From IMG/VR virus record IMGVR_UViG_3300030107_001446, positions 76,244-140,243 of that record: a stretch of 64,000 bases of DNA, one strand, 5' to 3'. A program made the position numbers and the translations under genes. Within the stretch, counting starts at the first letter, position 1. Every line of letters starts with the position of its first letter. Below the pieces are notes generated by a model that had not been told where the DNA came from, searched no databases, and saw nothing but the letters and a program-made list of their open reading frames with translations. The DNA is from a virus. Shown here in pieces: positions 37,559 through 57,581 of this stretch.

Positions 37559-37565
37559 CTAAATA
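37559..37565 (+). promoter_or_regulatory. CTAAATA late-promoter-like motif
   Basis: CTAAATA 23 nt before the ATG at 37588, just after the stop of the previous gene, with AAGGA before the start. Confidence 0.5.
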
Positions 37566-42078: not shown

Positions 42079-42891
42079 ATGGCACAGTTAAACATCGGAG
42101 CAATAAAAGACCTTGGTGGTATAGGTGGATTCACTTTTACATCTGGGGGAATTACATGTAACGGTACTCTTAATGTTACTAACATTATGATTGACGGTAC
42201 GATTGCTGGATCCTCTGCGTTCATTCTTCCCAACCCATCAGGTCATGCTGAGGAATATATCTCTAACAATGGTAGTAACCTAACATGGGGTAATCTATCA
42301 ACTGCTTCTGGTGTTCGCTCAATGCAAGTGTGGACTGGAAATGGTACATGGAACAAACCAGAGTCTAGCGTCAAGACTATTTGTGTATTCTGCACAGGTG
42401 CAGGTGGCGGTGGATCAGGTCATGGAGAAGGTGGCGGTGCAGGAGGTACCGCAGTAAGACAATTAGATGTTACTAACATATCATCAGTATCTGTAACAAT
42501 AGGAAACCCAGGTGGTGGTACTAACTATGCAGGATGTGGTGGTAATGGTAACGGTTCAAGTTTTGGTGGATATTGCTCTGCCAGTGGTGGATACGGTGCA
42601 AACTGTAGGTCACAGTATACTGGAGGAATCGGAGGAAATGGTTCTGGAGGAGCACTAAACATCTATGGTGGAGGTGGCGGTGGTCACGGACACTATTATA
42701 ACTATGGTAACCATGGTGGTTCATCATCCTATTGGGGTGGCACACAACCATCATCACACTCTCAGTCAAACTATGCTCATAGACACCAGTCTCATTGTGC
42801 ATGGGGAGCAGGAGGAAACGGATCCCGACATGGTAACAGAGGTGCTAGAGGTCGTGAGGGAGTCGTGGTTGTCCATGAGTTCTATGGATAA
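42079..42891 (+). CDS. Glycine-rich adhesin 1
   Basis: 270 residues, the first of three paralogues. The N-terminal 75 residues (IGAIKDLGGIGGFTFTSGGITCNGTLNVTNI) form a beta attachment module. After an RSMQVWTGNGTWNKP strand, the C-terminal part is dominated by Gly-rich runs (GAGGGGSGHGEGGG, GGNGSGGALNIYGGGGGGHGH). Such Gly-rich motifs pack as polyglycine-II helices in T-even phage gp38 tip adhesins. A segment rich in His, Tyr and Ser (about residues 205-235) differs from the other copies. The ending RGARGREGVVVVHEFYG is shared. Probable host receptor binding. Confidence 0.68.
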   Translation: MAQLNIGAIKDLGGIGGFTFTSGGITCNGTLNVTNIMIDGTIAGSSAFILPNPSGHAEEYISNNGSNLTWGNLSTASGVRSMQVWTGNGTWNKPESSVKTICVFCTGAGGGGSGHGEGGGAGGTAVRQLDVTNISSVSVTIGNPGGGTNYAGCGGNGNGSSFGGYCSASGGYGANCRSQYTGGIGGNGSGGALNIYGGGGGGHGHYYNYGNHGGSSSYWGGTQPSSHSQSNYAHRHQSHCAWGAGGNGSRHGNRGARGREGVVVVHEFYG

Positions 42892-42913: not shown

Positions 42914-43723
42914 ATGTCTAAACTTAGAGTATCCGCTATTAAAGATTTAACAGGTGCAAATGGGTTCATGCTTGCAGGTGGTAGTATCACTGCATCTACA
43001 ACTCTAACTGTATCTAACATTGTTATTAATGGTAATATTATGGGTGGGTCAACTTATAATGTCCCAGATCAAGGTGGTAACGCAGGTAAGGCATTGATGT
43101 CAAATGGTTCTGGATTTGAGTGGGTTGAAGTTGCTGCTGCATCTGGTATTCGCTCTATGCAGACATGGACATCCAATGGTACATGGACTAAACCTAATGA
43201 TGTGACATCTATCATCGTAACCGTAGTTGGTGCAGGTGGTGGAGGATCAGGATATAATGAATCAGGTGGTGCAGGTGGTATGTCAGAAAGAGTTATTGAT
43301 GTAACTAACGTATCATCAGTATCTGTATCAATCGGTAATCCAGGTGGTGGTTCTAACTACTCAGGATGTGGAGGAAGTGGTAACACATCTTCATTCGGTA
43401 GTTATTGCAGTGCTTCTGGAGGATATGGTGCTAACTGTAGACAACAGCATGCAGGTGGTATCGGTGGAAATGGTTCAGGTGGTAACCTGAATATATACGG
43501 TGGTGGAGGTAACGGACACGGTTCTTACTGGGCGTTCGGTAACGTCACCGCAGGTAGATCATTCATGGGAGGATCACAACCTTCATCCCATGGTCAAGGA
43601 AATTATGCTCACAACCATCAATCTCACTGTGCTTGGGGTGCAGGAGGAAATGGTGGACAGCATGGAGCACGAGGTGCTAGAGGTCGTGAAGGTGTCGTTA
43701 TTGTTCAGGAGTTTTACGGATGA
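42914..43723 (+). CDS. Glycine-rich adhesin 2
   Basis: 269 residues, paralogue of the genes before and after. Same order: attachment module, RSMQTWTSNGTWTKP strand, Gly-rich core with the conserved Cys positions, and the ending RGREGVVIVQEFYG. The variable segment reads SYWAFGNVTAGRSFMGGSQ. It overlaps adhesin 3 by ATGA, so the two are co-translated. Confidence 0.68.
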   Translation: MSKLRVSAIKDLTGANGFMLAGGSITASTTLTVSNIVINGNIMGGSTYNVPDQGGNAGKALMSNGSGFEWVEVAAASGIRSMQTWTSNGTWTKPNDVTSIIVTVVGAGGGGSGYNESGGAGGMSERVIDVTNVSSVSVSIGNPGGGSNYSGCGGSGNTSSFGSYCSASGGYGANCRQQHAGGIGGNGSGGNLNIYGGGGNGHGSYWAFGNVTAGRSFMGGSQPSSHGQGNYAHNHQSHCAWGAGGNGGQHGARGARGREGVVIVQEFYG

Positions 43724-44541
43724 GTGTTCTTAAGGTATCACAAGTTACTGACATTACTGGACTGGGTGGTTTTGCCCTATCGTCTGGTAACATCACGTGT
43801 GCAGGGACACTTAAGGTTAATGATATAAACATTAACGGTACTATAACAGGGTCATCTACACATATCATACCTAGTATGAGTGGTCAGTCAGGAAGATTTT
43901 TGAGCACAGATGGCACAAACCTAGTTTGGTCAACTGAGTTCCAAAGTGGTGGCGGGGGTGCAGGTTTCAGATCTATGCAGGTTTGGACTTCTAATGGTAC
44001 ATGGAATAGACCCAGTGATGTCAGAACTATCAAAGTTGTACTTGTAGGTGCAGGTGGTGGTGGAACTGGTTGCGGTGAGTCTGGTGGTGCAGGTGGACAT
44101 AGTGAAAGAGTAATAGATGTACAAAACGTTTCTTCAGTTTCAGTCTCAGTAGGTAACCCAGGTGGTGGTACAAACTATGCAGGATGTGGCGGTAACGGAA
44201 ATGGCACAAGTTTTGGAGGTTATTGTTCCGCCTCAGGAGGATATGGAGCAAACTGTAGGCAGCAGCATGCAGGTGGTATTGGAGGAAATGGATCTGGTGG
44301 TAATATAAACACCTACGGTGGTGGTGGAAATGGATGGGGTTGGTGGTCAATCTATGGTCAGCATCAAGCAGGTGCATCATACTTTGGCGGTACACAACCA
44401 TCCAGTCACCAACAATCTAACTACGCACACAGACACCAATCACATTGTGCTTGGGGTGCAGGTGGTCAGGGTTCCATGTTTGGTAACAGAGGAGCAAGAG
44501 GACGTGAAGGTGTGGTTGTAGTATATGAATATTATGGTTAA
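43720..44541 (+). CDS. Glycine-rich adhesin 3
   Basis: 273 residues, third paralogue. The attachment module (VSQVTDITGLGGFALSSGNITCAGTLKV) and the Gly-rich core are kept. The variable segment is aromatic: WGWWSIYGQHQAGASYFGG. It has a longer Gly stretch after the first module (FQSGGGGAGFRS). The start overlaps adhesin 2 (ATGA). Probable receptor-binding tip or subunit. Confidence 0.68.
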   Translation: MSVLKVSQVTDITGLGGFALSSGNITCAGTLKVNDININGTITGSSTHIIPSMSGQSGRFLSTDGTNLVWSTEFQSGGGGAGFRSMQVWTSNGTWNRPSDVRTIKVVLVGAGGGGTGCGESGGAGGHSERVIDVQNVSSVSVSVGNPGGGTNYAGCGGNGNGTSFGGYCSASGGYGANCRQQHAGGIGGNGSGGNINTYGGGGNGWGWWSIYGQHQAGASYFGGTQPSSHQQSNYAHRHQSHCAWGAGGQGSMFGNRGARGREGVVVVYEYYG

Positions 44542-44547
44542 TAAATA
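44540..44547 (+). promoter_or_regulatory. AATAAATA late promoter
   Basis: AATAAATA just after the stop of adhesin 3, 25 nt before the ATG at 44572; matches the NATAAATA form. Confidence 0.5.
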
Positions 44548-44571: not shown

Positions 44572-45003
44572 ATGGCTAAATGGGCTATCGTTGAAGCATC
44601 CTCAGGTGGTCTCAGTGATATCTGTGATGAAGCAGATAAATTTGAGATCTATGAAGGAGCAGATTCAAACATGAAATGGGTCGAAGTACCCGATGACACA
44701 ACTTACTCACATTATATGGCGAATGGTACCATATATGATAGTGCAGATGATCAAGATTCCGTTGTAGAAGCAATGTTGAATCGTACTGAAGCATATGGTC
44801 CAGTGGGTGACCAACTCGATATGATGTATCGAGATCAGGTAAACAGTACTAATGAGTGGAGAACACACATTAATAATGTTAAAACTAATACTGCTAAACC
44901 ATCCACAGTAACACAAACTAAATCAAACGATCCTAAGAGGATTCAATTACAAGGACGCAAAGCATGGGATCCTTGGGTTGACAACTGGGTACCACCAGGG
45001 TAG
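44572..45003 (+). CDS. Hypothetical, possibly fibre assembly-related
   Basis: 143 residues, acidic. A segment around residues 82-102 (GDQLDMMYRDQVNSTNEWRTHI) resembles a motif in small proteins encoded after phage tail fibre genes, some called fibre assembly or chaperone proteins. The end is basic and Trp/Pro-rich. Position behind the adhesins is consistent with a chaperone role, but this is inference. Confidence 0.55.
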   Translation: MAKWAIVEASSGGLSDICDEADKFEIYEGADSNMKWVEVPDDTTYSHYMANGTIYDSADDQDSVVEAMLNRTEAYGPVGDQLDMMYRDQVNSTNEWRTHINNVKTNTAKPSTVTQTKSNDPKRIQLQGRKAWDPWVDNWVPPG

Positions 45004-45026: not shown

Positions 45027-46487
45027 ATGAAGTTTGCGATTGTTGGTGGCGGTACCGCAGGATGGATGACTGCTGCTACTTTAATAAGACAATTTCCACA
45101 GGCGGATCTTACACTCTATGAGAGTGATAAGGTACCGCCTATTGGCGTTGGAGAGTCAACAACTCAATTCTTTAGAGTATGGTTAAAGTTCCTTGGACTC
45201 AAGGATGAAGAGTGGATGGCAGCATGTGATGCTACCTATAAAGTATCAGTAATGTTCCATGGATTCCATGATGTAGATGATTCACCATGGCAATATCCAT
45301 TTGGCATCCCAAGAGCAGATACATATACTCCTGACTATTGGTTTTATAAACAATCTCAAGAAGGATTTCCAGGATCCAGACTAGCGGAGGACTACAACCT
45401 AGCAGCACAATGTGCTATAAGAAATAAACTACCTGTTGGTGAGTATGCAAATGAGTATTATGATTTGCAGAAATCAGCAGGTTTTCATTTTAATGCTAGT
45501 AAGTTTGCTATATGGTTAAGAGATAACTATTGCTTACCTAAAGGTGTTAAGCATGTAATTAAAGATATAAAGAAGAAACCGAAGGCAGACTTAGTATTTG
45601 ATTGCACAGGGTTTGCATCTAAATTTAATAAGTCTAAGTGGATATCATTTGAAGATTGGTTACCAAATAATAGTGCATGGGTAACACGTGTGCATTATGA
45701 TGATAAGGATACACAAATCAAACCATGTACTGATTGCACAGCATTAAGTAGTGGGTGGGTATGGAATGTACCAACCTATGAGACTATAGGTACAGGATAT
45801 GTATTTTGTGATAAATTCATTTCGCCAGAGAATGCCCGAAAAGAGTTTAGGAAACATCTAGCAAAGAATGTGCAGAGTGATGCTGCATTATATACTGATA
45901 AGATGTTCCGTCTTATTAAATTTAAAACTGGTAGAAGAGAGGAGATATGGAAAGGCAATGTAGTTTCTATTGGACTATCAGCAGGATTTATAGAACCATT
46001 AGAATCTAATGGATTATTATCTGTGCATAACTTCTTACTTAATTTCATTAGATGTTATAGGGGTAAGGTAGTAACTCAATTCACTAGAGATACATTTAAT
46101 AACCATTGTAATCATACATTTGATTCGTTTGCATCATTTGTTGCTATGCATTATGCTCTTACTCAACGTAATGATTCACCATATTGGAAGCATATTCAAA
46201 ATATTAAATATCCATATGATTCTGCTGTACAGGCAGCACAGATACTACATATGGAAAGCAGTTCCAATTTCCATAAAAAATTATCCTATGAAAATTTTAG
46301 TAACGAGGGATTATTCTATGTTATTGCAGGTCACAACTGGAATCCATTTACATCACCAATTGAACATGAGATGAGATTGTTTAGTGATATGCCAGATATT
46401 CCAGAGGATATCCAATGGAATGAAGAGGAATTTGATAAGATGCCATTACCTATGGATTATTATAAGGAGAAAATATATGCAAGTTGA
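45027..46487 (+). CDS. FAD-dependent tryptophan-halogenase family protein
   Basis: 486 residues, the full family length. The FAD-binding VGGGTAGW is at residues 6-13, PIGVGEST at 38-45, the catalytic Lys at Lys72 (ATYKVSVMF), WVWNVP at 244-249 as the WxWxIP halogenase motif, and IEPLES with Glu326. All the residues that mark this family are present. These enzymes use FADH2 from a separate reductase, O2 and halide to halogenate indole rings or peptides. No reductase gene is visible here. It opens the modification gene cluster and overlaps the next halogenase. Confidence 0.88.
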   Translation: MKFAIVGGGTAGWMTAATLIRQFPQADLTLYESDKVPPIGVGESTTQFFRVWLKFLGLKDEEWMAACDATYKVSVMFHGFHDVDDSPWQYPFGIPRADTYTPDYWFYKQSQEGFPGSRLAEDYNLAAQCAIRNKLPVGEYANEYYDLQKSAGFHFNASKFAIWLRDNYCLPKGVKHVIKDIKKKPKADLVFDCTGFASKFNKSKWISFEDWLPNNSAWVTRVHYDDKDTQIKPCTDCTALSSGWVWNVPTYETIGTGYVFCDKFISPENARKEFRKHLAKNVQSDAALYTDKMFRLIKFKTGRREEIWKGNVVSIGLSAGFIEPLESNGLLSVHNFLLNFIRCYRGKVVTQFTRDTFNNHCNHTFDSFASFVAMHYALTQRNDSPYWKHIQNIKYPYDSAVQAAQILHMESSSNFHKKLSYENFSNEGLFYVIAGHNWNPFTSPIEHEMRLFSDMPDIPEDIQWNEEEFDKMPLPMDYYKEKIYAS

Positions 46488-48051
46488 ATCTATTTGTATT
46501 GTAGGAGGTGGATCCTCAGGATGGATGACAGCAGCATTGTTATCTAAAGAGCATCCAGAAATAGAAATAGCACTGATAGAGGATCCAAATATACCTACCA
46601 TAGGTGTGGGTGAATCTACACTAGGACATTTCAATAGGTTTCTTATTAGACTAGGACTAGAAGATAAAGATTGGATGCCATTTTGTGATGCAACATATAA
46701 ATCATCTATTGGATTCAAGAATTTTAGAGAGGGTAAGGGTGAGAGGTTCCAATATCCATTTGGTAGATTTGAGTGGGATCCAGACCAGATGGATGCTATA
46801 TCTAATTTCTTTGAGTTGCAGAATGAAATAGGTAAGGATGTATATCCACCAGAAGAGTTTGCAAGATATGCTAATAAGGTTACATACTTAGCAGAATATA
46901 ATAAGATGGTGGAAGAGATACCTGACTCTAATTTTAGATTTAAGGTACATACAGCATATCATTTAGATGCTAATAAGTTTGGTGAGTTTCTAAAGAATAA
47001 AGCATCATCTGTACATCATATACTTGCTAAGGTAGAGAATGTAATTAAGACACCTGATGGTAGTATTCATAGTATTATTACTGATGAGGGTAATACTATT
47101 AGTGCTGACCTATTTGTAGATTGCACAGGATTTAAATCATTATTATTAGAACAACACATGGGTGTTAAGTTTAACTCATGTAAGGATATGTTGTTTAATG
47201 ATAGAGCATTGGCAACACATATTGACTATGATGATAAAGAGACACAGATGGTACCTTATACCGATTGTGTTGCATTATCTAACGGATGGGTGTATAATAT
47301 ACCATTATGGAGCAATATCGGAACTGGATATGTATATTCCAGTGACTATATTAGTGACGAGGATGCAGAGGAAGAGTTTAGAAATTATCTACCAGAATCT
47401 GCTAAAGATTGCTCATTAATGCCCATCAAAATTAAACATGGTGTGCATGAGGTGGGATGGATTAAGAATGTTGTTGGTATTGGATTAGCATATGGATTCT
47501 TAGAACCATTAGAATCTACTGGTCTGATGACTACACATGAGAATGCTATATTCTTATCTGATTTGTTATCACAGCGTAACGGTATCATCACGGAGCATTC
47601 AAGGAGTGTATATAATTTCTCAGCACAAAAGACATACGAGAGCATGAAGATATTCATATCTATGCATTATAGTTTGTCAGCAAGAGAGGATAATGATTAT
47701 TGGTCTGATTGTACAAATACTATTGAATACCCAGGTGTGAAGGGTACCATGTTACATGGTAATTTTGCTAGTATGGATGCATTAACAGATTATTATGCAT
47801 TATTAGATGGATTAAATAATAGATTCTATTCACAGAAGAGATTGGATGGTCTGATTTATATTGGAGCAGGTCAAGATATATCTCCTATTAGTAAAGCAAT
47901 GTATGATGAGAAAAATTCAGTCACACCTGAGAAGAAAGAATATATAAGAGACATACACAAAGAATATCAAATTCATAAAAAAGAAACTATTGAGTGGTTC
48001 AAAAAGCAACCATCTCATTACCAATATTTGAAGGATAATATCCATGTTTAA
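46477..48051 (+). CDS. FAD-dependent tryptophan-halogenase family protein 2
   Basis: 524 residues from the ATG at 46477, chosen because AAGGAG precedes it and the FAD motif IVGGGSSGW starts at residue 8; upstream codons belong to the previous gene's frame overlap. TIGVGEST (41-48), Lys75 (ATYKSSIGF), WVYNIP (271-276) and LEPLESTG with Glu346 are present; the second Trp of WxWxIP is Tyr. The halogenase residues are thus kept. Paralogue of the gene before, with moderate similarity. The pair may form two regiospecific enzymes or a complex. Confidence 0.86.
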   Translation: MQVESICIVGGGSSGWMTAALLSKEHPEIEIALIEDPNIPTIGVGESTLGHFNRFLIRLGLEDKDWMPFCDATYKSSIGFKNFREGKGERFQYPFGRFEWDPDQMDAISNFFELQNEIGKDVYPPEEFARYANKVTYLAEYNKMVEEIPDSNFRFKVHTAYHLDANKFGEFLKNKASSVHHILAKVENVIKTPDGSIHSIITDEGNTISADLFVDCTGFKSLLLEQHMGVKFNSCKDMLFNDRALATHIDYDDKETQMVPYTDCVALSNGWVYNIPLWSNIGTGYVYSSDYISDEDAEEEFRNYLPESAKDCSLMPIKIKHGVHEVGWIKNVVGIGLAYGFLEPLESTGLMTTHENAIFLSDLLSQRNGIITEHSRSVYNFSAQKTYESMKIFISMHYSLSAREDNDYWSDCTNTIEYPGVKGTMLHGNFASMDALTDYYALLDGLNNRFYSQKRLDGLIYIGAGQDISPISKAMYDEKNSVTPEKKEYIRDIHKEYQIHKKETIEWFKKQPSHYQYLKDNIHV

Positions 48052-48973
48052 TTTATTTAAAAAGAAAGAGGAACCATTTAAGAGGTGGGTAAGATTCTAT
48101 TCTATACATCCAGGTGTATCAGAAATAAATCCATGGATATCTGCATCTAAACTTAAAAGGAAATGGAGAAAGGATGCACATATTAGACAGGCAAAGTATG
48201 AAGAGTCTAGGTGTCCTGCAAAGAAATGGTTTAAGATGTTTGGCACATATAATGACTATAGAATGAAGGGTGGTGCAGAGAGAGAAATTGATCCAGATAG
48301 TATCTCTGGATTATTCTCACATGCAGTAACATGTCCTGCTATTGCACAGGTAATGGATACTGGATGGGTGATGGTAGCACCTGCTGATATACTATTGAAA
48401 TTTGATAAGGGTAACCCAAGTTTCGGATGGTTATCACAAATGAATTTCAATACAAGTGATGACTATGTTAAATCACATGTAGCGGAACAAACAGAGGGTA
48501 TGAGAGATTTATTAGCACCATGGAAGGGTGAGACTCTACCAAGTGTTATTAAATTAGAAATGCCTTGGAGGGTTATGGCACACCCTGATGTATTATTCAT
48601 GCAAATGCCTATACCATATTATGATGAACCAAGGTTCACCGTACCAACTGGTATAGTGGATCCTGCATTCAGTTATGAAATCAATCTACAATTATTCTGG
48701 CATCAATTACCTAGGGGTGAGGAAGACAGTGAAGTAGTATTGGTTAAGGCAGGTACTCCATTAGTACAATGGGTACCACTTGATAGAAAAACATTCGATA
48801 TGAAAAATTGGAATGTAATACAAGAGGATGCTAATGAAGAGGATATTGCAAATAATGCTATTATGGACTATAATAGGTTCCAGCATTTTGCAGAAACTAC
48901 TACTCTCAAAGAGAGGATAGAATTAAATAGAAACGTAGTCAGTCTAAATAAAAACAAAGAGAGGTTTAACTAA
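48044..48973 (+). CDS. Conserved cyanophage protein, DUF6065-like (tentative)
   Basis: 309 residues. CPAIAQVMDTGWVMVAPADILLKF and MAHPDVLFMQMPIPYYDEPRFTV, then YEINLQLFWHQL, recall in order the DUF6065 proteins found near 2OG enzymes in cyanobacteria and phages, but I am not certain of the match. It could be a substrate-presenting or modifying partner. It overlaps the halogenase stop and is followed by a coiled-coil protein. Function unknown. Confidence 0.6.
   Translation: MFNLFKKKEEPFKRWVRFYSIHPGVSEINPWISASKLKRKWRKDAHIRQAKYEESRCPAKKWFKMFGTYNDYRMKGGAEREIDPDSISGLFSHAVTCPAIAQVMDTGWVMVAPADILLKFDKGNPSFGWLSQMNFNTSDDYVKSHVAEQTEGMRDLLAPWKGETLPSVIKLEMPWRVMAHPDVLFMQMPIPYYDEPRFTVPTGIVDPAFSYEINLQLFWHQLPRGEEDSEVVLVKAGTPLVQWVPLDRKTFDMKNWNVIQEDANEEDIANNAIMDYNRFQHFAETTTLKERIELNRNVVSLNKNKERFN
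48944..48950 (+). promoter_or_regulatory. CTAAATA motif before 48973
   Basis: CTAAATA at 23 nt before the ATG at 48973, inside the end of the previous gene. The position fits the late-promoter pattern, but it may be a chance match in AT-rich coding sequence. Confidence 0.3.
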
Positions 48974-49371
48974 TGGCAGAAGAACAAGATGTGATGGAGG
49001 TTAATCTTGCCGAGAGAGCAGGAGTACAGACCGAAGAGCAGAAATTAGAAAGTACAGGTGTTATCGAAGGTCTTATAACATTTGACCAGTTGGTAATGAA
49101 CTTCTTACAACAGCATCATAATGCTCTGGAAGAGTATAAGAAACTCCAACAGGCACTAGATAATATGCATTATACAAGTACTATCACTAAGATATCACTT
49201 GAAGAATTGCAGACTAAAAAAGATACTCTTAATAAATTATCTGGAGCAGTTGAAGCACTAGCATTATATAAGAAGCATGTAGATCCTAATTGCACTGATA
49301 GAGATTTCGTATTCTCAAATGACTCAGTAGAACCTGAGATAAAAGAGGACGATATTAAGGATGAAGGTTGA
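48973..49371 (+). CDS. Coiled-coil hypothetical
   Basis: 132 residues, mostly helical with heptad-like Leu (residues 40-105), acidic tail. A GAGG ribosome binding site precedes the ATG. It overlaps the first 2OG enzyme of the cluster by 11 nt. No domain recognised. Confidence 0.6.
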   Translation: MAEEQDVMEVNLAERAGVQTEEQKLESTGVIEGLITFDQLVMNFLQQHHNALEEYKKLQQALDNMHYTSTITKISLEELQTKKDTLNKLSGAVEALALYKKHVDPNCTDRDFVFSNDSVEPEIKEDDIKDEG

Positions 49372-50047
49372 TTTATTATTTCCTACACCATTATGGACAT
49401 TTGATGATTGTGGTATAGATTTAAACAATCTTGCCCAATTTTGCCAACAGGTGAAGGATGAAGATGAAAGAGGAAGAACAGCATCAAATGATGGTGGATG
49501 GCAATCTTGGGACTTCGTACCACAGGTTATGGAGCAGAAGCATATGCCATTACATGATGTCTATGAGTATCTAACAACTATCGCATATTCTGCATGTGAT
49601 GATTGGGGATATCAAAAGTATAGACTCAAGATGACTAACCTCTGGATTAATATAAATCAGAAAGGAAATTTCAATCATTTACATACACATCCTGGTTGTC
49701 AATTATCAGGTGTATTCTATGTTAAAGTACCACCATGTTGTAGTGGTGAATTAAAGTTTGTTAGAGATATGAAAGACCAATGCTTAAAAGAAGCATGGGG
49801 ATGCTCAGAGAACTTTGACCATTATGAGAGAGAATATAATAATATAGAGAGATATGTAACACCAGAGGAGAATAAAGCATTATTGTTCCCTGCTTGGTTA
49901 ATGCACTCAGTTGATAGAAGTGCTAGTGATGATGATAGAATATCATTATCATTTAATTTTAATGTATACTCTGAACATTATGTGAAAAATGGAATCTATC
50001 CAAGTCAAGAACCTACTAGGCAAACATTACCACTCTCGCTTATGTAA
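49361..50047 (+). CDS. 2OG-Fe(II) oxygenase
   Basis: 228 residues. LFPTPLWTF start, NQKGNFNHLHTHPGCQLSGVFYV with the HxH metal site near residues 108-110, ALLFPAWLMHSVDRSA (distal His) and DRISLSFNFN (2-oxoglutarate Arg). All key residues are present. First of five in the cluster. Confidence 0.86.
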   Translation: MKVDLLFPTPLWTFDDCGIDLNNLAQFCQQVKDEDERGRTASNDGGWQSWDFVPQVMEQKHMPLHDVYEYLTTIAYSACDDWGYQKYRLKMTNLWININQKGNFNHLHTHPGCQLSGVFYVKVPPCCSGELKFVRDMKDQCLKEAWGCSENFDHYEREYNNIERYVTPEENKALLFPAWLMHSVDRSASDDDRISLSFNFNVYSEHYVKNGIYPSQEPTRQTLPLSLM

Positions 50048-50651
50048 ATTAGTATCGGGGATGAATGGATTCCCATGGTATTTTTTAAGTGATGATGTCA
50101 GTTATAGTACTCAAGGGTACGAGTTTGGTGATGTACGATTATTGGAGATACCTGATAAGGAACAGACAGTAGGATTCACACATGTATTGTTAGACCAGAA
50201 TAATGTTGAGTCACCATGGTTACCACAGTTTCAACCATTACTTGATAGTGTAGAAGATCAATTTGATTATCAAATTGATTGGTTACGTGTTAGATTATCT
50301 CTACTATTAAATAATGGTAAGACAGGACATAATGCACCACACACAGATAGTGAAAAGGATCATTATGCAGCATTATATTATTTTCACGAGAGTAACGCAC
50401 CAACAGTTTTCTTTAATGAGATGGATGAAGAGAGTCGTGGTACAATAGATGAGAGATGGATGTTTGCAATGACAAATAAGAAATGGACAGTAGCAGACAG
50501 AGTATATCCTGAACCAAATATGTTGCATATATTTAATGGACACCAGTTCCATGCATCATCCACACCTACTGGTAAGGAGAAATATAGAATAACATTAAAT
50601 CTTAATTGGACTACACCTCGTGACCTCTTTAACCCTGATAGAAACCCTTAA
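49989..50651 (+). CDS. 2OG-Fe(II) oxygenase, prolyl-hydroxylase-like
   Basis: 220 residues, of a different subgroup from the preceding one. NGKTGHNAPHTDSEKDHYAALYYFH has the HxD pair, HIFNGHQFHASSTPTGKEKYRITLNLNW has the distal His and Arg. The start at 49989 overlaps the previous gene by 59 nt; a later ATG at 50061 is possible but would remove the helix that leads into FPWYFLSDD. The substrate is unknown. Confidence 0.82.
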   Translation: MESIQVKNLLGKHYHSRLCKLVSGMNGFPWYFLSDDVSYSTQGYEFGDVRLLEIPDKEQTVGFTHVLLDQNNVESPWLPQFQPLLDSVEDQFDYQIDWLRVRLSLLLNNGKTGHNAPHTDSEKDHYAALYYFHESNAPTVFFNEMDEESRGTIDERWMFAMTNKKWTVADRVYPEPNMLHIFNGHQFHASSTPTGKEKYRITLNLNWTTPRDLFNPDRNP

Positions 50652-51342
50652 AACTAAAGATTGGGAATATGATGACACACCACATTTATTCAAGAGTGGG
50701 GTGGATCCACATGGTTTGGTAACGTGGAAGGATATAGAATACTGTTTAAATAATCCTAATCAGTTTAACATCAAGTTTATTAATAAACATATTAATCAGT
50801 TTATTGAGTATCCTAAGTTTAAGAGAGCATGGGATGCACATGACCAACCAGAGGTCAGAGAACTGATGAATATATTTGCTGATGGTCACACATGTATAAT
50901 AGAGAAGTTTGAGTATATACATCACAGCAAGCAGTACATATTAAAACAGATAGAAGATATATTTAATGTGCAAGCATCAATGCATATATTTTGTGGTCTA
51001 GGTGATACTAGATCATTTAATATACATGAGGATTATGCTAATAATTTAATCATACAAGTAGAAGGAGAGACACACTGGGAAGTATATGAGAACCGTGCAT
51101 CACATTTAATACCACAGTTAGATTATACTTCTGTTGCTGATAATTTAGGACAGGGTGTTGACCCATCTAAACTGACAATAGCAATTGATCATGTGATGCA
51201 ACCAGGAGATATATTATACATACCTGCAAGGACATATCATCGTGCGTTCCCTAAAGCAAAGAGATTATCTCTCAGCATACCATTACAACATTTGTGCAGT
51301 GCACAACCAGTAGATAGAAATTATTATGATCTCCCCTGTTAA
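50620..51342 (+). CDS. JmjC/cupin-4-like hydroxylase
   Basis: 240 residues with a GTG start, 32 nt inside the previous gene. The pattern FNIHEDYANNLIIQVEGETHWEVYE has HxD, and QPGDILYIPARTYHRAFPKAKRLSLSI has the distal His. This is the cupin-like JmjC fold of ribosomal oxygenases and FIH-type hydroxylases, which act on His, Asn or Arg in proteins. The N-terminal half is longer than in the protein at 32614. Confidence 0.75.
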   Translation: MTSLTLIETLKTKDWEYDDTPHLFKSGVDPHGLVTWKDIEYCLNNPNQFNIKFINKHINQFIEYPKFKRAWDAHDQPEVRELMNIFADGHTCIIEKFEYIHHSKQYILKQIEDIFNVQASMHIFCGLGDTRSFNIHEDYANNLIIQVEGETHWEVYENRASHLIPQLDYTSVADNLGQGVDPSKLTIAIDHVMQPGDILYIPARTYHRAFPKAKRLSLSIPLQHLCSAQPVDRNYYDLPC

Positions 51343-51934
51343 TGTTCATCCTTATTTGTATAAGGGTAATTATGATTTTAAATTTGATACCATTAAGGAT
51401 AGGGTTGATGAGTATGTAAATTATGCTAGGGAGAATCCAATGGATGAAACTCCTGAGATGGATGGTGGTGTGACTACTGTTGTGCAATGTTTTAATGACC
51501 CACCACATAACTGGGATATATTCCAGGACTTCAATGAATATGTGTTCAAGTGTGTTGATGACTTATGGAATCTATGGAAGTATCACCCTATGCCTAGAGA
51601 CTTGATGCAATCATGGATAAATGTACATCCTAAGGGTGCATGGACTAAAGAGCATCATCATCAACATGTAGCAGTGGCAGTAGCAGCATACTTGCATGTA
51701 CCAGAGAATAGTGGTAGACTATTGATCAAAGACCCACTGGGAGTTTATAAGTATAATGAACCCCTAATATATGGATACCACGATAAAGGTTTCGATTGGG
51801 AAGCAGTTGATGTAGAATCAGGAGATATATTATTCTTTCCTGGTTGGTTGACACATAAAACTGAGGTAAATAGTAGTGAGCATGACAGATATGTCATGTC
51901 AATGAACATTAGAGCATTACATCATCAGGCATGA
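51326..51934 (+). CDS. 2OG-Fe(II) oxygenase
   Basis: 202 residues. WTKEHHHQHVAVAVAAYLHVP has several His including the HxxH-like metal pair, SGDILFFPGWLTHKTEVN has the distal His, and DRYVMSMNI the 2-oxoglutarate Arg. The metal site is noticeably His-rich. It overlaps both neighbours. Confidence 0.78.
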   Translation: MISPVNVHPYLYKGNYDFKFDTIKDRVDEYVNYARENPMDETPEMDGGVTTVVQCFNDPPHNWDIFQDFNEYVFKCVDDLWNLWKYHPMPRDLMQSWINVHPKGAWTKEHHHQHVAVAVAAYLHVPENSGRLLIKDPLGVYKYNEPLIYGYHDKGFDWEAVDVESGDILFFPGWLTHKTEVNSSEHDRYVMSMNIRALHHQA

Positions 51935-52647
51935 GTAAATTAATATCAGTATATGATACTAAATTAATATCAGATAAGTTATTATATGAGATAACATATC
52001 TACCGTACAAGATGATCAGGACTGATACACCACCATGTGAGAATCAACCTGATGTAGACATGCGTCATAGTTATTGGACACATCAATTATATAATTTTTG
52101 TCCAGTAAATGATCCAGAGTACTATGAGAATGCAGGACTAGAAGCAAGTAACAATCCTATCTACCTAGATGTGTTAGGATATTTGGAAGCAAAATGCCCA
52201 GATTTGCCCCCTCGTGCTCATCTTTATAGTGCATATATTAATGTCTTAAAGTATGGTAACTCACCTGCTGTACATGTTGATGCACCTTATCATGTGGATA
52301 GTAATAAAACTGTATTAGTTTATTTAAATCCAGAGTGGAATTGGAATTGGGGTGGTGAGACTATGTTCTTTGATCATAATCTTGAAGCAAAGAGAATAGT
52401 ATCATTTAAACCAGGTAGAGTAGTATTATTTGATGGTAGACTACCACATTTAGGTTGTGCACCGTCAGCACATTATCTTTATAACAGATACATTATGGCA
52501 TTCAAATTTATGGATCCAGATGTAAGACAGAAGTTATTTGATAAATATGACATGGAGAATCATCCACCAGTATTTGATATGGGTGTGATGGGATTTAGTC
52601 CTAAGGTAACAAAACAATTATGGGAGAACAATGACGCAGGAATCTGA
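51931..52647 (+). CDS. 2OG-Fe(II) oxygenase, prolyl-4-hydroxylase-like
   Basis: 238 residues. The metal pair is in SPAVHVDAPY (HVD), the beta core in KTVLVYLNPEWNWNWGGETMFF, the distal His in FDGRLPHLG, and Arg in YNRYIMAFKF. This is the classic prolyl-4-hydroxylase arrangement, as in WGGETMFF. Overlaps the previous gene by ATGA. The substrate is unknown. Confidence 0.85.
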   Translation: MSKLISVYDTKLISDKLLYEITYLPYKMIRTDTPPCENQPDVDMRHSYWTHQLYNFCPVNDPEYYENAGLEASNNPIYLDVLGYLEAKCPDLPPRAHLYSAYINVLKYGNSPAVHVDAPYHVDSNKTVLVYLNPEWNWNWGGETMFFDHNLEAKRIVSFKPGRVVLFDGRLPHLGCAPSAHYLYNRYIMAFKFMDPDVRQKLFDKYDMENHPPVFDMGVMGFSPKVTKQLWENNDAGI

Positions 52648-52807
52648 CCCTAGATGTTTCAGACAATTATTAATTCCATCTGAAATGAAAACATTAAGGA
52701 AGGCACTTTTCATTTATCAGGGTCAATTATATAAGAAATATGGCAAATTAACTAAAGAACAACGTAGTGAAATTGAGTCCATATATGATAAATTACATCT
52801 AAGATGA
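52631..52807 (+). CDS. Small basic hypothetical in the oxygenase cluster
   Basis: 58 residues, starting 17 nt inside the preceding gene and overlapping the next start by ATGA. Lys/Arg-rich helices (EMKTLRKALFIYQGQLYKKYGKLTKEQ). Likely a real gene that routine tools may miss; function unknown. Confidence 0.6.
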   Translation: MTQESDPRCFRQLLIPSEMKTLRKALFIYQGQLYKKYGKLTKEQRSEIESIYDKLHLR

Positions 52808-53442
52808 ATCAACCAGAAATAATACCTGCATTTAGTCAACCAATATATGTTAACACCGTAGAATTGGATGACTATTTAATATCTGAGGTAGTTAATTCAC
52901 CAACAAATGATGATAGTTTTCATCACGATCCTACCTATAGAAATAATGGTAGTATGTCAGTTGATAGACAATGGTTACAATCTCATCCAGAGATTAGAAA
53001 TATTGTTGAAGAGCATTTAGATAATTATGTATTTAATGAGTTAGGAATTGGAAGACAAAGACATCAATTAATCCATACATGTAGTTGGGTTAATATGCAT
53101 GAGAATGGTGATGTTGCACAAGGTCACACACATACAAATAGTATGTTTAGTGGTGTTATGTATTTTAAAATACCAGAGAATAGTGGTGAGTTAAGATTTC
53201 ATTGTCCTGCAATTATTCCTACATATGTAACACAAACAGTATTACCTGACATAGTTAGATCTAATGTATATAATATGAGAGAGATTAATATTATGCCTGA
53301 GGTAGGTATGATAATAATATTTCCATCACACTTAGCACATAGTGTTAGTGTTAATGAAAGCAATGAGCAGAGATATTCAATGGCATTTAATTATTTTATG
53401 AAAGGTCAATTTGGATACGATGACAACTCATTAACAATATGA
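52804..53442 (+). CDS. 2OG-Fe(II) oxygenase
   Basis: 212 residues. IIPAFSQPIYVNTV start, NGDVAQGHTHTNSMFSGVMYFKIP with HxH, VGMIIIFPSHLAHSVSVNES with the distal His, and EQRYSMAFNYF with the 2-oxoglutarate Arg. Complete set of key residues. The last enzyme of the cluster before a promoter region. Confidence 0.86.
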   Translation: MNQPEIIPAFSQPIYVNTVELDDYLISEVVNSPTNDDSFHHDPTYRNNGSMSVDRQWLQSHPEIRNIVEEHLDNYVFNELGIGRQRHQLIHTCSWVNMHENGDVAQGHTHTNSMFSGVMYFKIPENSGELRFHCPAIIPTYVTQTVLPDIVRSNVYNMREINIMPEVGMIIIFPSHLAHSVSVNESNEQRYSMAFNYFMKGQFGYDDNSLTI

Positions 53443-53815: not shown

Positions 53816-53983
53816 ATGAGAAAGTGGTGGAGAGTCTGGAAGTATAGTTTAGGGAGTTTTAGCGATGAAACAACGAAGAGGTATGATAATATTGTACTCA
53901 TTATTCGATCTCTTATCTTTCTTACTTATCTCGTCACTAATTGTTTTATTGTTAGTGGTGTAATTAGACATTGGAATGATTGA
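53816..53983 (+). CDS. Small single-pass membrane protein
   Basis: 55 residues. RKWWRVWKYSLGSFSDETTKRYDNI then a hydrophobic segment (LIIRSLIFLTYLVTNCFIVSGVI). I recall very similar small proteins in other cyanophages. It overlaps the first methyltransferase by 8 nt. Function unknown. Confidence 0.65.
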   Translation: MRKWWRVWKYSLGSFSDETTKRYDNIVLIIRSLIFLTYLVTNCFIVSGVIRHWND

Positions 53984-54770
53984 CACAGTATTATATGGTG
54001 ATTGTAGATATACATTACCAACAATAAATCATAAGTGTAGGATGTGTGTTACATCCCCACCTTATTATGGATTGCGAAATTATAAAGGTGCAGATAATCA
54101 AATAGGTTTAGAGCAATCACCTGAGGATTATGTTGATGAGTTAGTTAAAGTATTTCGATTAGTGAGAGATATATTAACTGAGGATGGGACATTATGGGTT
54201 AATATAGGTGATAGTTATTATAACTATCGAGGTGGTAAAGGTCAGGCATTACCTAATCAATCATTTGGTGGTGACCAAGATCTACCACAAATAAATCCTA
54301 GACGTGGTAATAAATTACAAGGATATAAAGAGAAAGATTTAATTGGCATACCTTGGATGTTAGCATTCGCATTACGTCAGGATGGATGGTATCTAAGACA
54401 GGATATAATATGGAATAAACCTAACCCTATGCCTGAGAGTGTAAGAGATAGATGCACTAAATCACATGAGTATATCTTTTTATTATCAAAGAATCAGAAT
54501 TATTATTTTGATGTGGATAGTATTAAAGTGCCAACTGTTGATGGTAAACAATTAAAGAGAAAGAAAACAGTATGGGATGTGAAGGTTAAACCTAATAGAG
54601 CAACTGGACATCACGCAGCATATCCTGAGGAATTAATAACACCTTGTATATTGGCAGGTAGTGAAGAGAATGATATTATACTTGACCCATTTATGGGTAG
54701 TGGTACTACAGGGACAGTTGCCAAGGGATTTGGACGTAGATACATCGGATGTGATTTACAAGAGTATTAA
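53976..54770 (+). CDS. DNA methyltransferase (beta class, N4/N6 type)
   Basis: 264 residues. Motif IV is TSPPYYGLR at residues 26-34, and motif I DPFMGSGTTG lies near the C-terminus, followed by YIGCDLQEY. The order IV then I marks the beta group of amino-methyltransferases; SPPY (not DPPY) is more usual for N4-cytosine enzymes. It methylates DNA bases with S-adenosylmethionine. The next gene is a nuclease-like protein and the one after a second methyltransferase, so it is likely one half of a restriction-modification pair. Confidence 0.87.
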   Translation: MIDTVLYGDCRYTLPTINHKCRMCVTSPPYYGLRNYKGADNQIGLEQSPEDYVDELVKVFRLVRDILTEDGTLWVNIGDSYYNYRGGKGQALPNQSFGGDQDLPQINPRRGNKLQGYKEKDLIGIPWMLAFALRQDGWYLRQDIIWNKPNPMPESVRDRCTKSHEYIFLLSKNQNYYFDVDSIKVPTVDGKQLKRKKTVWDVKVKPNRATGHHAAYPEELITPCILAGSEENDIILDPFMGSGTTGTVAKGFGRRYIGCDLQEY

Positions 54771-54843
54771 GGAATGTTACAAATAAAAGACGTGGCGTAA
54801 ATATATGTTATATTAAGTATGTCAAACAAATACTATTCATAAA

Positions 54844-55500
54844 ATGACAAAGACTTTTAAAACAGATTTAATATCCGACCTTGAGACAGTAACATTATGT
54901 GCTATCAAGGATTTAAATGAGTATATCACCGACTTTAGGATATATGGACGTAGTTTACAAGACTACAAGAATACAATGAATACAGCAGACTTCACAAAGT
55001 TTTTCCAATATATTGTGAATGATGCCATTGAAGATACAATCAAGAATCTAGGTATTGATGCTAGACGTGAAGAGGTATCAGGATATGATTATGTCTTTGG
55101 TGATACACCAGTTGAATTTAAATTAATGGGTGGAGACAGTAAGGCATCATTTGCTACTGGTAATAAGACATCACACTTTGGTGGTGCAAAGACTAACATA
55201 GTATGGACAATTAAATATACATTTAATGATAATCAAATTGATTCATTTGGTATGGTTGTTATCGATACTAACTTAACAGAGTCAAATGTATGGAAGTCAT
55301 CATCAGGACGTAAGGATAGTTTCTCAACACTTGAATTATTAGTGGGTGAAGAGAATTGTATATTATCTCAAATAGGTATAGTAAGACCTGCAACAAAGAA
55401 ATTACATTTCTTACCATTACCTACTCAACAAATATTACCTGTTGATAATGAAGTTAAAAGTTTAAACTTCTCAGGATTTGAGAAGATGAGAGATTTATAA
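54844..55500 (+). CDS. PD-(D/E)XK-like protein, candidate restriction endonuclease
   Basis: 218 residues. The segment SGYDYVFGDTPVEFKLMGG has Asp82 and Glu91-x-Lys93, the D-x(8)-E-x-K layout of type II restriction enzymes. It is followed by SFATGNKTSHFGGAKTNIVWTIKY, and such enzymes often carry a similar TGNK-x-S stretch after the catalytic core. It sits between two SPPY-type methyltransferases in the same direction. I know no family name for it; the call rests on the motif and the neighbourhood. If active, it would cut unmodified DNA. Confidence 0.62.
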   Translation: MTKTFKTDLISDLETVTLCAIKDLNEYITDFRIYGRSLQDYKNTMNTADFTKFFQYIVNDAIEDTIKNLGIDARREEVSGYDYVFGDTPVEFKLMGGDSKASFATGNKTSHFGGAKTNIVWTIKYTFNDNQIDSFGMVVIDTNLTESNVWKSSSGRKDSFSTLELLVGEENCILSQIGIVRPATKKLHFLPLPTQQILPVDNEVKSLNFSGFEKMRDL

Positions 55501-55505
55501 ATCTC

Positions 55506-55534
55506 TTGACAATATCCGAGGATGCCAGTATAAT
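55506..55534 (+). promoter_or_regulatory. Perfect consensus sigma70 promoter
   Basis: TTGACA (55506-55511), exactly 17 nt, TATAAT (55529-55534). Transcription would start near 55541, 17 nt before the ATG at 55558. It is the best host-type promoter in the window and gives the second methyltransferase and following genes independent, probably immediate-early, expression. Confidence 0.85.
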
Positions 55535-55557
55535 AGGGTATCCTCTATTAATGTTGA

Positions 55558-56403
55558 ATGCTAGAAGTTAATAAAACATACCATATTAATTGCATTGCAG
55601 GGATGGAGAAACTTGATGATAAATCAGTTGATTTAGTCGTCACGTCACCACCCTATGATGATTTAAGGACATACAACGACTCTAGTAGTTGGAGTATGGA
55701 AGTATTCTATGCAGTTGCTTGTCAACTGGAGAGAGTATTAAAAGATGGTGGTGTTATAATGTGGAATGTGAATGATGCTACAGTAAATGGTAGTGAGACA
55801 GGCACAAGTTTTAGACAGGCATTACATTTTAAAGATGTATGTGGTTTAAGACTACATGATACTATGATATATGAGAAAACAGGCATTGCTTTTGCATCAG
55901 GCAGTAAGAGTGTTAGGTATTCTCAAGCATTTGAATATTGCTTTATACTATCTAAGGGTAAACCTAAGACAGTTAATATTATCATGGATAAACCTAATAA
56001 GTGGGCAGGATCCACATCATGGGGTAAAGCAAGAAGTAGAAAGAAAACAGGTGAATTAGATATTAGAGAGAATAAGACAAATCCGATTAAAGAATATGGT
56101 GCTAGGAATAATATTTGGAGGATTAAGAATTGTGGAGGATTTGGACAATCAAATAAAGAGAGTTACAAACATCCTGCAACAATGCCAGAGGAGTTAGCAT
56201 TAGGTCATATTCAAACATGGACAAATGAAGGTGATTTAGTATTGGATCCTTTCATGGGTAGTGGCACAACAGCACAAGTATCCTTAGAAAATAAGAGAAA
56301 CTTCATTGGATTTGAAATTGATGATACATACTATAAAATGTGTCTAGATAGAATGAAACCATTGCAAGATAATTTATTAACAAGATTAAATGACATTGCG
56401 TAG
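55558..56403 (+). CDS. DNA methyltransferase 2 (beta class)
   Basis: 281 residues. TSPPYDDLRTY at residues 29-39 is motif IV, and DPFMGSGTTAQVSLENKRNFIGFEID is motif I near residue 238. The target-recognition region between them differs from the first enzyme. SPPY suggests N4-cytosine. It is driven by its own very strong promoter rather than by the nuclease transcript, so modification could begin before restriction. Two methyltransferases would suit an asymmetric target. Confidence 0.87.
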   Translation: MLEVNKTYHINCIAGMEKLDDKSVDLVVTSPPYDDLRTYNDSSSWSMEVFYAVACQLERVLKDGGVIMWNVNDATVNGSETGTSFRQALHFKDVCGLRLHDTMIYEKTGIAFASGSKSVRYSQAFEYCFILSKGKPKTVNIIMDKPNKWAGSTSWGKARSRKKTGELDIRENKTNPIKEYGARNNIWRIKNCGGFGQSNKESYKHPATMPEELALGHIQTWTNEGDLVLDPFMGSGTTAQVSLENKRNFIGFEIDDTYYKMCLDRMKPLQDNLLTRLNDIA

Positions 56404-56858: not shown

Positions 56859-57054
56859 AGGAGACGAGGCAGCGAAGGCACTTGAAAAACTAATTAATTT
56901 AACTAAGAAATACTCAGAAACTGAATTGGATGAGGATGGATTAAGAGAATCAATTAGTGAAAGAATAAATGCAACAAATGAGTTGAAAGATATTCTTACT
57001 AAGGCAAAGAATGCACGAGAAAGTTCTTATAAACAATGGCGAGCAAGTGATTAA
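56845..57054 (+). CDS. Hypothetical charged helical protein
   Basis: 69 residues, Lys/Glu-rich, coiled-coil-like. It overlaps the previous gene and shares one base with the next start. Function unknown. Confidence 0.55.
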   Translation: MKGNEGDEAAKALEKLINLTKKYSETELDEDGLRESISERINATNELKDILTKAKNARESSYKQWRASD

Positions 57055-57581
57055 TGTATGACGTTAAAGTTATAGATGATTATTTCCCAGAGTGGTTAGT
57101 TAATATTGTAAGTAGGGATACTGAGCAAATGCCAGTAACCTATACTAACTCACCATATAATACATTTGATAGAGCAAGATTCTTTGGATGTATGATGATA
57201 GAGCAAGATAAACCAAAAGATCATCCACCTTATTGGTTTAATGAATATTTTAATAGATGTATCTATAATGATATATTGAAAGAATATGAAATAACTAATT
57301 GCTACCGTATATTATTAAATGGACAATTACCTGATATGAATGGATGCAATCATAATGATGCAGACTCTCAGGATTATATGACAGCAATTTATATGGCACA
57401 TGGCACAAGTGGTGATACTGTTATAGTTGATAACCACGATTGTGATTATAAGAGAGTGCCATTTAAGGAAGGAAGGATAGTTATATTCAATAGTAGTATA
57501 TGGCACAGAGGTGAAGCACCTAAGGAAGGATACAGAGTAACACTAGGAGCAGTATATCCACTATTCAAACCAACATTATGA
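57054..57581 (+). CDS. 2OG-Fe(II) oxygenase, early-region copy
   Basis: 175 residues. GCNHNDADSQDYMTAIYM has HND as the metal pair, EGRIVIFNSSIWHRGEAPKEGYRVTLGAVYPL has the distal His and the Arg. It is the only clear oxygenase in the small-gene early region, so its timing should differ from the others. The substrate may be a host component. Confidence 0.78.
   Translation: MYDVKVIDDYFPEWLVNIVSRDTEQMPVTYTNSPYNTFDRARFFGCMMIEQDKPKDHPPYWFNEYFNRCIYNDILKEYEITNCYRILLNGQLPDMNGCNHNDADSQDYMTAIYMAHGTSGDTVIVDNHDCDYKRVPFKEGRIVIFNSSIWHRGEAPKEGYRVTLGAVYPLFKPTL

Follow-up and report, generated by a model that had tools for sequence, protein, structure and literature searches.

Organization of the Locus

The window considered here is a 64,000-nucleotide stretch of viral DNA, positions 76,244 to 140,243 of the 199-kb virus record IMGVR_UViG_3300030107_001446, whose closest named phage is P-TIM40 (Kyanoviridae). 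At positions 45027-53442 it carries ten genes on the + strand, all listed in an earlier sequence-only reading, and their enzymes count, by Pfam, PHROGs and NCBIfam, as two flavin adenine dinucleotide (FAD)-dependent halogenases, five 2-oxoglutarate (2OG)-Fe(II) oxygenases and one JmjC_2 enzyme. That reading had named the same enzymes, and both halogenase genes are indeed intact members of the tryptophan-halogenase family, with PF04820 matches and complete catalytic motifs. It had also described the genes as all overlapping in one direction; the single direction stands, while a 156-bp spacer precedes the last 2OG gene (52804-53442). The cluster is AT-richer than the fibre genes, with a GC content of 33-36% vs 39-44%.

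Upstream, on the same strand, lie three Gly-rich tip adhesins (42079-42891, 42914-43723 and 43720-44541; phrog_863 'tail fiber assembly', PF21722 Gly_rich_2), which are likely receptor-binding proteins. Contrary to the earlier description, they are not immediately followed by the cluster: an overlooked gene for a protein of 143 amino acids (44572-45003, + strand; phrog_1787 body) sits between the adhesins and the first halogenase. Its product ends in a tryptophan-bearing C-terminal tail, GRKAWDPWVDNWVPPG, and this tail accompanies downstream halogenases in other viruses. Together, the gene arrangement and the halogenase-linked Trp tail suggest that the tip with which these marine cyanobacterial viruses grip their hosts is chemically altered by enzymes of their own.

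A Trp Tail That Tracks Downstream Halogenases

Homologs of the 143-amino-acid protein share a common body ending near '..W...I..VK...P'. In those adjacent to halogenases, a variable tail is added at the C-terminus, and the Trp in it is near-invariant, occurring mostly as [P/K/R][ACS]W. This residue, Trp132 in the window protein, is the only near-invariant position past the body, and it is nearly always preceded by a small residue. Viral contigs were scanned with Trp-tailed and tail-less queries, keeping the best 80 matches per scan, and a halogenase was counted if it lay within 3 kb downstream. Among the 94 non-redundant homologs, 44 are Trp-tailed, 34 are tail-less with at least 3 kb of downstream sequence, and 16 could not be assessed. 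A downstream halogenase accompanies all 44 Trp-tailed homologs and none of the 34 tail-less ones. The Fisher value of 7e-23 is not phylogenetically independent and overstates independence, because query A1 was derived from halogenase-adjacent proteins, only the best 80 matches per scan were taken, and the tail label needs few changes on the body tree. Four more homologs from prokaryote assemblies (genome_contigs) follow the same pattern, with a halogenase beside three of three Trp-tailed proteins and beside none of one tail-less protein.

The strength of the association, as read from these comparisons, is long co-retention. Although the tail around it is scrambled, the Trp persists in almost all of the 44 lineages, even at identities as low as about 26%. 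In four decisive control loci (L058, which is S-RIM4, L101, L221 and L222), a Gly-rich adhesin precedes a tail-less homolog and halogenases are absent; L297, with a gap, is a fifth such case. The tail thus tracks the halogenase, not the adhesin. A stricter correspondence of one Trp per halogenase was rejected, since Trp number was not seen to correlate with halogenase copies. Three cyanophage-like cassettes (L301-L303) occur in contigs labelled as a Euryarchaeota metagenome-assembled genome, Nonlabens and a Prochlorococcus single-amplified genome; they probably represent phage contamination or an infecting phage, not host genes.

A Likely Tfa-Like Tail-Tip Chaperone

Structurally, the 143-amino-acid protein is predicted by AlphaFold2, at a predicted local distance difference test score (pLDDT) of 92, to comprise a beta domain (residues 1-56), helices (57-106) and the tail (107-143). 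This is the two-domain plan of Tfa-type chaperones, with an N-terminal beta domain and a C-terminal helical one. The protein has no Pfam match and no meaningful PDB sequence match. The top Foldseek match in the PDB is gp25, the tail-fibre chaperone of cyanophage Pam3 (7YPX chain a, 162 residues, the full-length protein), whose E-value of 1.1 is not significant alone, and the first functionally named viral match is the tail fiber assembly protein Tfa of TG1 (E 0.037).

Pam3 gp25 consists of a beta domain (1-55) and a helical domain (64-162); it binds a Gly-rich fibre, whose distal loops it covers, and does not occur in mature virions (PMC9608196). In the Pam3 gp24-gp25 pair (7YPX), as in the window, a Gly-rich fibre gene is followed by a beta-plus-helical chaperone; unlike the window, no Trp tail, halogenase or oxygenase has been described for Pam3. 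Because the domain plan and the genetic position are the same as those of gp25, a Tfa-like chaperone is the likeliest identity of the protein.

Two Flavin-Dependent Halogenases

Halogenase 1 (45027-46487, + strand) matches PF04820 at E 5e-87, and in the PDB it matches VirX1 and tryptophan 5-halogenases. Halogenase 2 (46477-48051, + strand, from a corrected ATG start at 46477) matches PF04820 at E 4e-103; it is a full-length VirX1-like protein of 524 amino acids that aligns with VirX1 of cyanophage Syn10 (PDB 6QGM) over residues 2-522 at E 3e-145. By their motifs, GxGxxG, the active-site Lys in CDATYK, WxWxVP or WxYxIP, and EPLES, both belong to the flavin-dependent (tryptophan) halogenase family. 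Across 60 cassette halogenases, the Lys is found in 58, and a WxWxIP-like motif and EPLES in 59 each. Loci L085-L091 carry two to three halogenases in tandem, with an extra 2OG gene between the chaperone and the first halogenase.

In this group, halogenation activity has been shown in the literature for VirX1 only, which iodinates numerous small aromatics in vitro (PMC8407142). Syn10 and syn9 both possess the same cassette. VirX1 has been studied on small aromatics, and the open-licence literature searched names neither a native substrate nor a link to tail proteins for it.

Conserved Gene Order in Other Phages

The same order recurs in P-TIM40, syn9, S-RIM44, Sf-CH3, S-WAM1, P-RSM6, S-SZBM1, S-CREM1 and Sf-FR1: a large fibre, Gly-rich adhesins, the 143-amino-acid homolog, one or more halogenases, optionally phrog_7084, and 2OG/JmjC genes. 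Since it is shared by named cyanophages and many viral contigs, the cluster is not a chance grouping. A halogenase is present in 20 of 20 phage records with the small homolog and in 19 of 19 with the adhesin, while the upstream fibre occurs in 460 records. An adhesin of this type lies upstream of the chaperone in all 41 assessable Trp-tail loci, and 2OG/JmjC genes are found in 38 of 38. Trp-tail loci vary in content, with one to three halogenases and with or without phrog_7084, and the small protein and the halogenase stay together throughout.

More broadly, a 2OG gene is near in 61 of 64 cassette loci, in 41 of 59 other halogenase loci and in 8 of 47 halogenase-less loci. Among 31 loci in other phages, a Gly-rich open reading frame is found only upstream in 11 and only downstream in none (p 0.001). 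In many non-cyanophage contigs a Gly-rich protein comes first, then a small Trp-rich protein of another family, then 2OG genes and a halogenase; the small protein there begins 'MAHFA...' and has a Trp-rich C-terminus (L150, L169, L176, L180, L204, L207 and L213). The Trp-tail chaperone is missing from Sf-CH11-type loci, which retain Gly-rich proteins, 2OG genes and a halogenase; this points to the Gly-rich adhesin as the common client. On these comparisons of gene content, what such loci have in common is the Gly-rich tip.

Oxygenases and Accompanying Proteins

All genes downstream of the halogenases are likewise on the + strand. The five 2OG enzymes fall into two subgroups. The PF13759/TIGR02466 type comprises the enzymes at 49361-50047 (TIGR02466/PF13759), 51326-51934 (PF13759, scoring slightly under the TIGR02466 cutoff) and 52804-53442 (TIGR02466, with an HTH motif), all of which carry HxH at the place that HxD holds in the iron triad (HxD/E...H) of classical 2OG enzymes. 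The phrog_274/HxD type comprises the 2OG-like enzyme at 49989-50651 (phrog_274 group, HTD motif, no Pfam match) and the enzyme at 51931-52647 (PF13640/FlmC-like, HVD motif); the JmjC enzyme also has HxD. Among motif-bearing TIGR02466/PF13759-type matches scanned across loci, 88 have HxH vs 10 with HxD, which suggests a three-His or otherwise changed iron site in these enzymes. The JmjC_2 hydroxylase (50620-51342) matches the JmjC domain of the ribosomal oxygenases NO66, MINA53 and ROX, and differs from them in being short, at 240 amino acids. Its JmjC_2 relatives are protein hydroxylases. A further phrog_274-type enzyme lies outside the cluster at 57054-57581, past DNA methyltransferase genes at 53976-56403.

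The phrog_7084 protein (48044-48973) is present in 32 of 38 Trp-tail loci and also adjoins halogenases outside the cassette (L019 and L170). Its predicted model resembles dUTPases (Foldseek probability up to 1.0), and it contains a stretch like dUTPase motif 3, GIvDP.Y..EiN.QLFWH. The sequence match is weak, and the protein is best described as having a predicted dUTPase-like fold. Its former label, DUF6065-like, survives only as a faint family resemblance: PF19541 matches one of 29 phrog_7084 homologs (E 0.0023) and not the window protein at E<=5, so membership of the latter was rejected. The coiled-coil protein that follows (48973-49371) has no confident family match.

Late Promoter-Like Sites

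Late promoters of the NATAAATA type have been reported in S-PM2 and Syn9 (PMC2984593). In the window, a T4-type late promoter-like site, ATAAATA, lies at 44541-44547 on the + strand, 31 bp before the chaperone ATG. On the + strand the sequence CTAAATA is found 12 times, in several cases 26-30 bp before structural starts, and on the - strand it is absent; it is probably the late promoter with one base changed. Examples on the + strand lie at 37559, 41157, 42052 and 48944, the last ahead of the coiled-coil gene. The signal is carried by strand bias and the 26-35 bp spacing of ATAAATA/CTAAATA. A scan with the T4 consensus TATAAATA by itself was below chance.

Across Trp-tail loci, a late-like site lies at most 60 bp upstream of 33 of 44 chaperones and 58 of 113 adhesins, and upstream of 6 of 60 halogenases, 1 of 34 phrog_7084 genes and 7 of 155 2OG/JmjC genes; starts were taken from the longest open reading frame, which may undercount every class. 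This distribution predicts late expression, with the enzymes read through behind the chaperone. The earlier suggestion of a late pathway gains support from the sites before the chaperone and adhesins; the enzymes usually lack such sites of their own.

Proposed Mechanism and Alternatives

We tentatively favor, at somewhat below even chances, a reading in which the cluster is a late-expressed tail-tip modification cassette and the Trp tail docks the halogenase. The Gly-rich adhesins would be folded on the Tfa-like chaperone, whose C-terminal Trp tail would serve as a docking arm for the halogenase or halogenases and perhaps for the 2OG/JmjC hydroxylases too. The docked enzymes could reach the adhesin before its release, and exposed Trp, Tyr and His in receptor-binding loops would be halogenated and other side chains hydroxylated. 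The sequences themselves show the gene order, the intact halogenase motifs, the link between tail and halogenase and the late promoter-like sites; the function of the chaperone, the docking, the choice of the adhesin as substrate and the halogen are inferred from them. The fuller proposal, that phages post-translationally hydroxylate the tips with which they bind receptors and add halogen to them (perhaps iodine or bromine), guided by a dedicated fibre chaperone with a halogenase-recruiting Trp tail, is possible, though we hold it more doubtfully.

Modification of tail fibres had already been raised by the sequence-only reading. The idea has since gained comparative support from the gene order behind the adhesins and the chaperone-like gene, the late promoter-like sites, the halogenase-dependent Trp tail, and the preference of Gly-rich adhesins in other phages for a place ahead of 2OG/halogenase genes. 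The adhesin Trp residues to which that reading had pointed form no conserved column across halogenase loci, and the Trp of GTWxKP, tried as a conserved target, is also found without a halogenase. The adhesin of S-RIM4, with no halogenase nearby, has a combined Trp, Tyr and His content of 10.8%, equal to that of halogenase loci, so aromatic enrichment does not clearly track the halogenase. If the adhesin is modified, the residues must vary with its loops. Several further points weigh against docking and adhesin modification: the gp25 match is weak alone; the chaperone body tree needs only about 1-3 changes of tail label, which implies few independent events; and the halogenases of S-B64 and S-MbCM6 lie away from tail genes, that of P-SSM2 also being located elsewhere.

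The main alternative, which we consider rather unlikely, is that the chaperone tail itself is the substrate. Its Trp would be halogenated and neighboring residues perhaps hydroxylated, as in the leader-core halogenation of ribosomally synthesized and post-translationally modified peptides (RiPPs), and the mark would control release, or the tail would remain on the virion. The singular conservation of Trp132 behind a small residue fits this, as does SrpI, which brominates a C-terminal Trp borne by a folded domain and a disordered stretch (PMC10858898). The SrpI/SrpE proteusin system thus likewise pairs a flavin halogenase with a C-terminal Trp on a folded domain; SrpI, however, belongs to a bacterial RiPP system with a nitrile-hydratase-like leader. 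A late promoter-like site of the chaperone's own, usually lacking before the enzymes, also suits a stoichiometric substrate. Yet in L127 the Trp is replaced by Phe (PAF), with a second Trp remaining; the tail is modelled at pLDDT 77-92, which is not low-confidence disorder; and if the protein, like Pam3 gp25, is missing from mature virions, a mark on it would have no obvious use.

A small-molecule product, the other option raised by the sequence-only reading, would make the position among tail genes incidental. The enzymes would then make or alter free Trp, indole, some pigment or a metabolite of the host, to serve host takeover or protection from competitors. The in vitro iodination of small aromatics by VirX1 (PMC8407142), a speculated role in antibiotic protection (PMC2984593) and the many halogenases outside tail loci all lean this way, but the annotated neighbors include no scaffold-making or transport genes and the co-occurrence with an adhesin and a Trp-tailed chaperone is strict, making this improbable. 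More improbable still is mere linkage, in which a hyper-variable tail-tip island gathers cargo and the Trp tail marks a lineage, with no link to the halogenase: halogenase-less cyanophage islands do gather 2OG genes and label changes on the chaperone tree are few, but the Trp outlasts its scrambled surroundings and the small protein and halogenase stay linked while their neighbors differ.

Significance

Halogenases and 2OG enzymes are already known from cyanophages. The roles proposed for these enzymes in the papers found are small-molecule chemistry, antibiotic protection, and 2-oxoglutarate/nitrogen signalling or DNA repair, and no link between them and tail proteins was found in the open-licence literature. 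What is new is the 143-amino-acid partner whose Trp tail tracks the downstream halogenase. Cyanophage halogenases were recognized years ago, yet no native substrate has been assigned to them, and the association offers both a concrete, testable partner, a chaperone-like protein with a near-invariant Trp, and a candidate client, the Gly-rich tip adhesin. If the proposal is true, it would bear on how host recognition is understood and on applying VirX1-like enzymes to proteins. It would also mean that phages abundant in the sea tailor their receptor-binding tips by chemistry, adding to host recognition a chemical layer not previously described in the literature searched.

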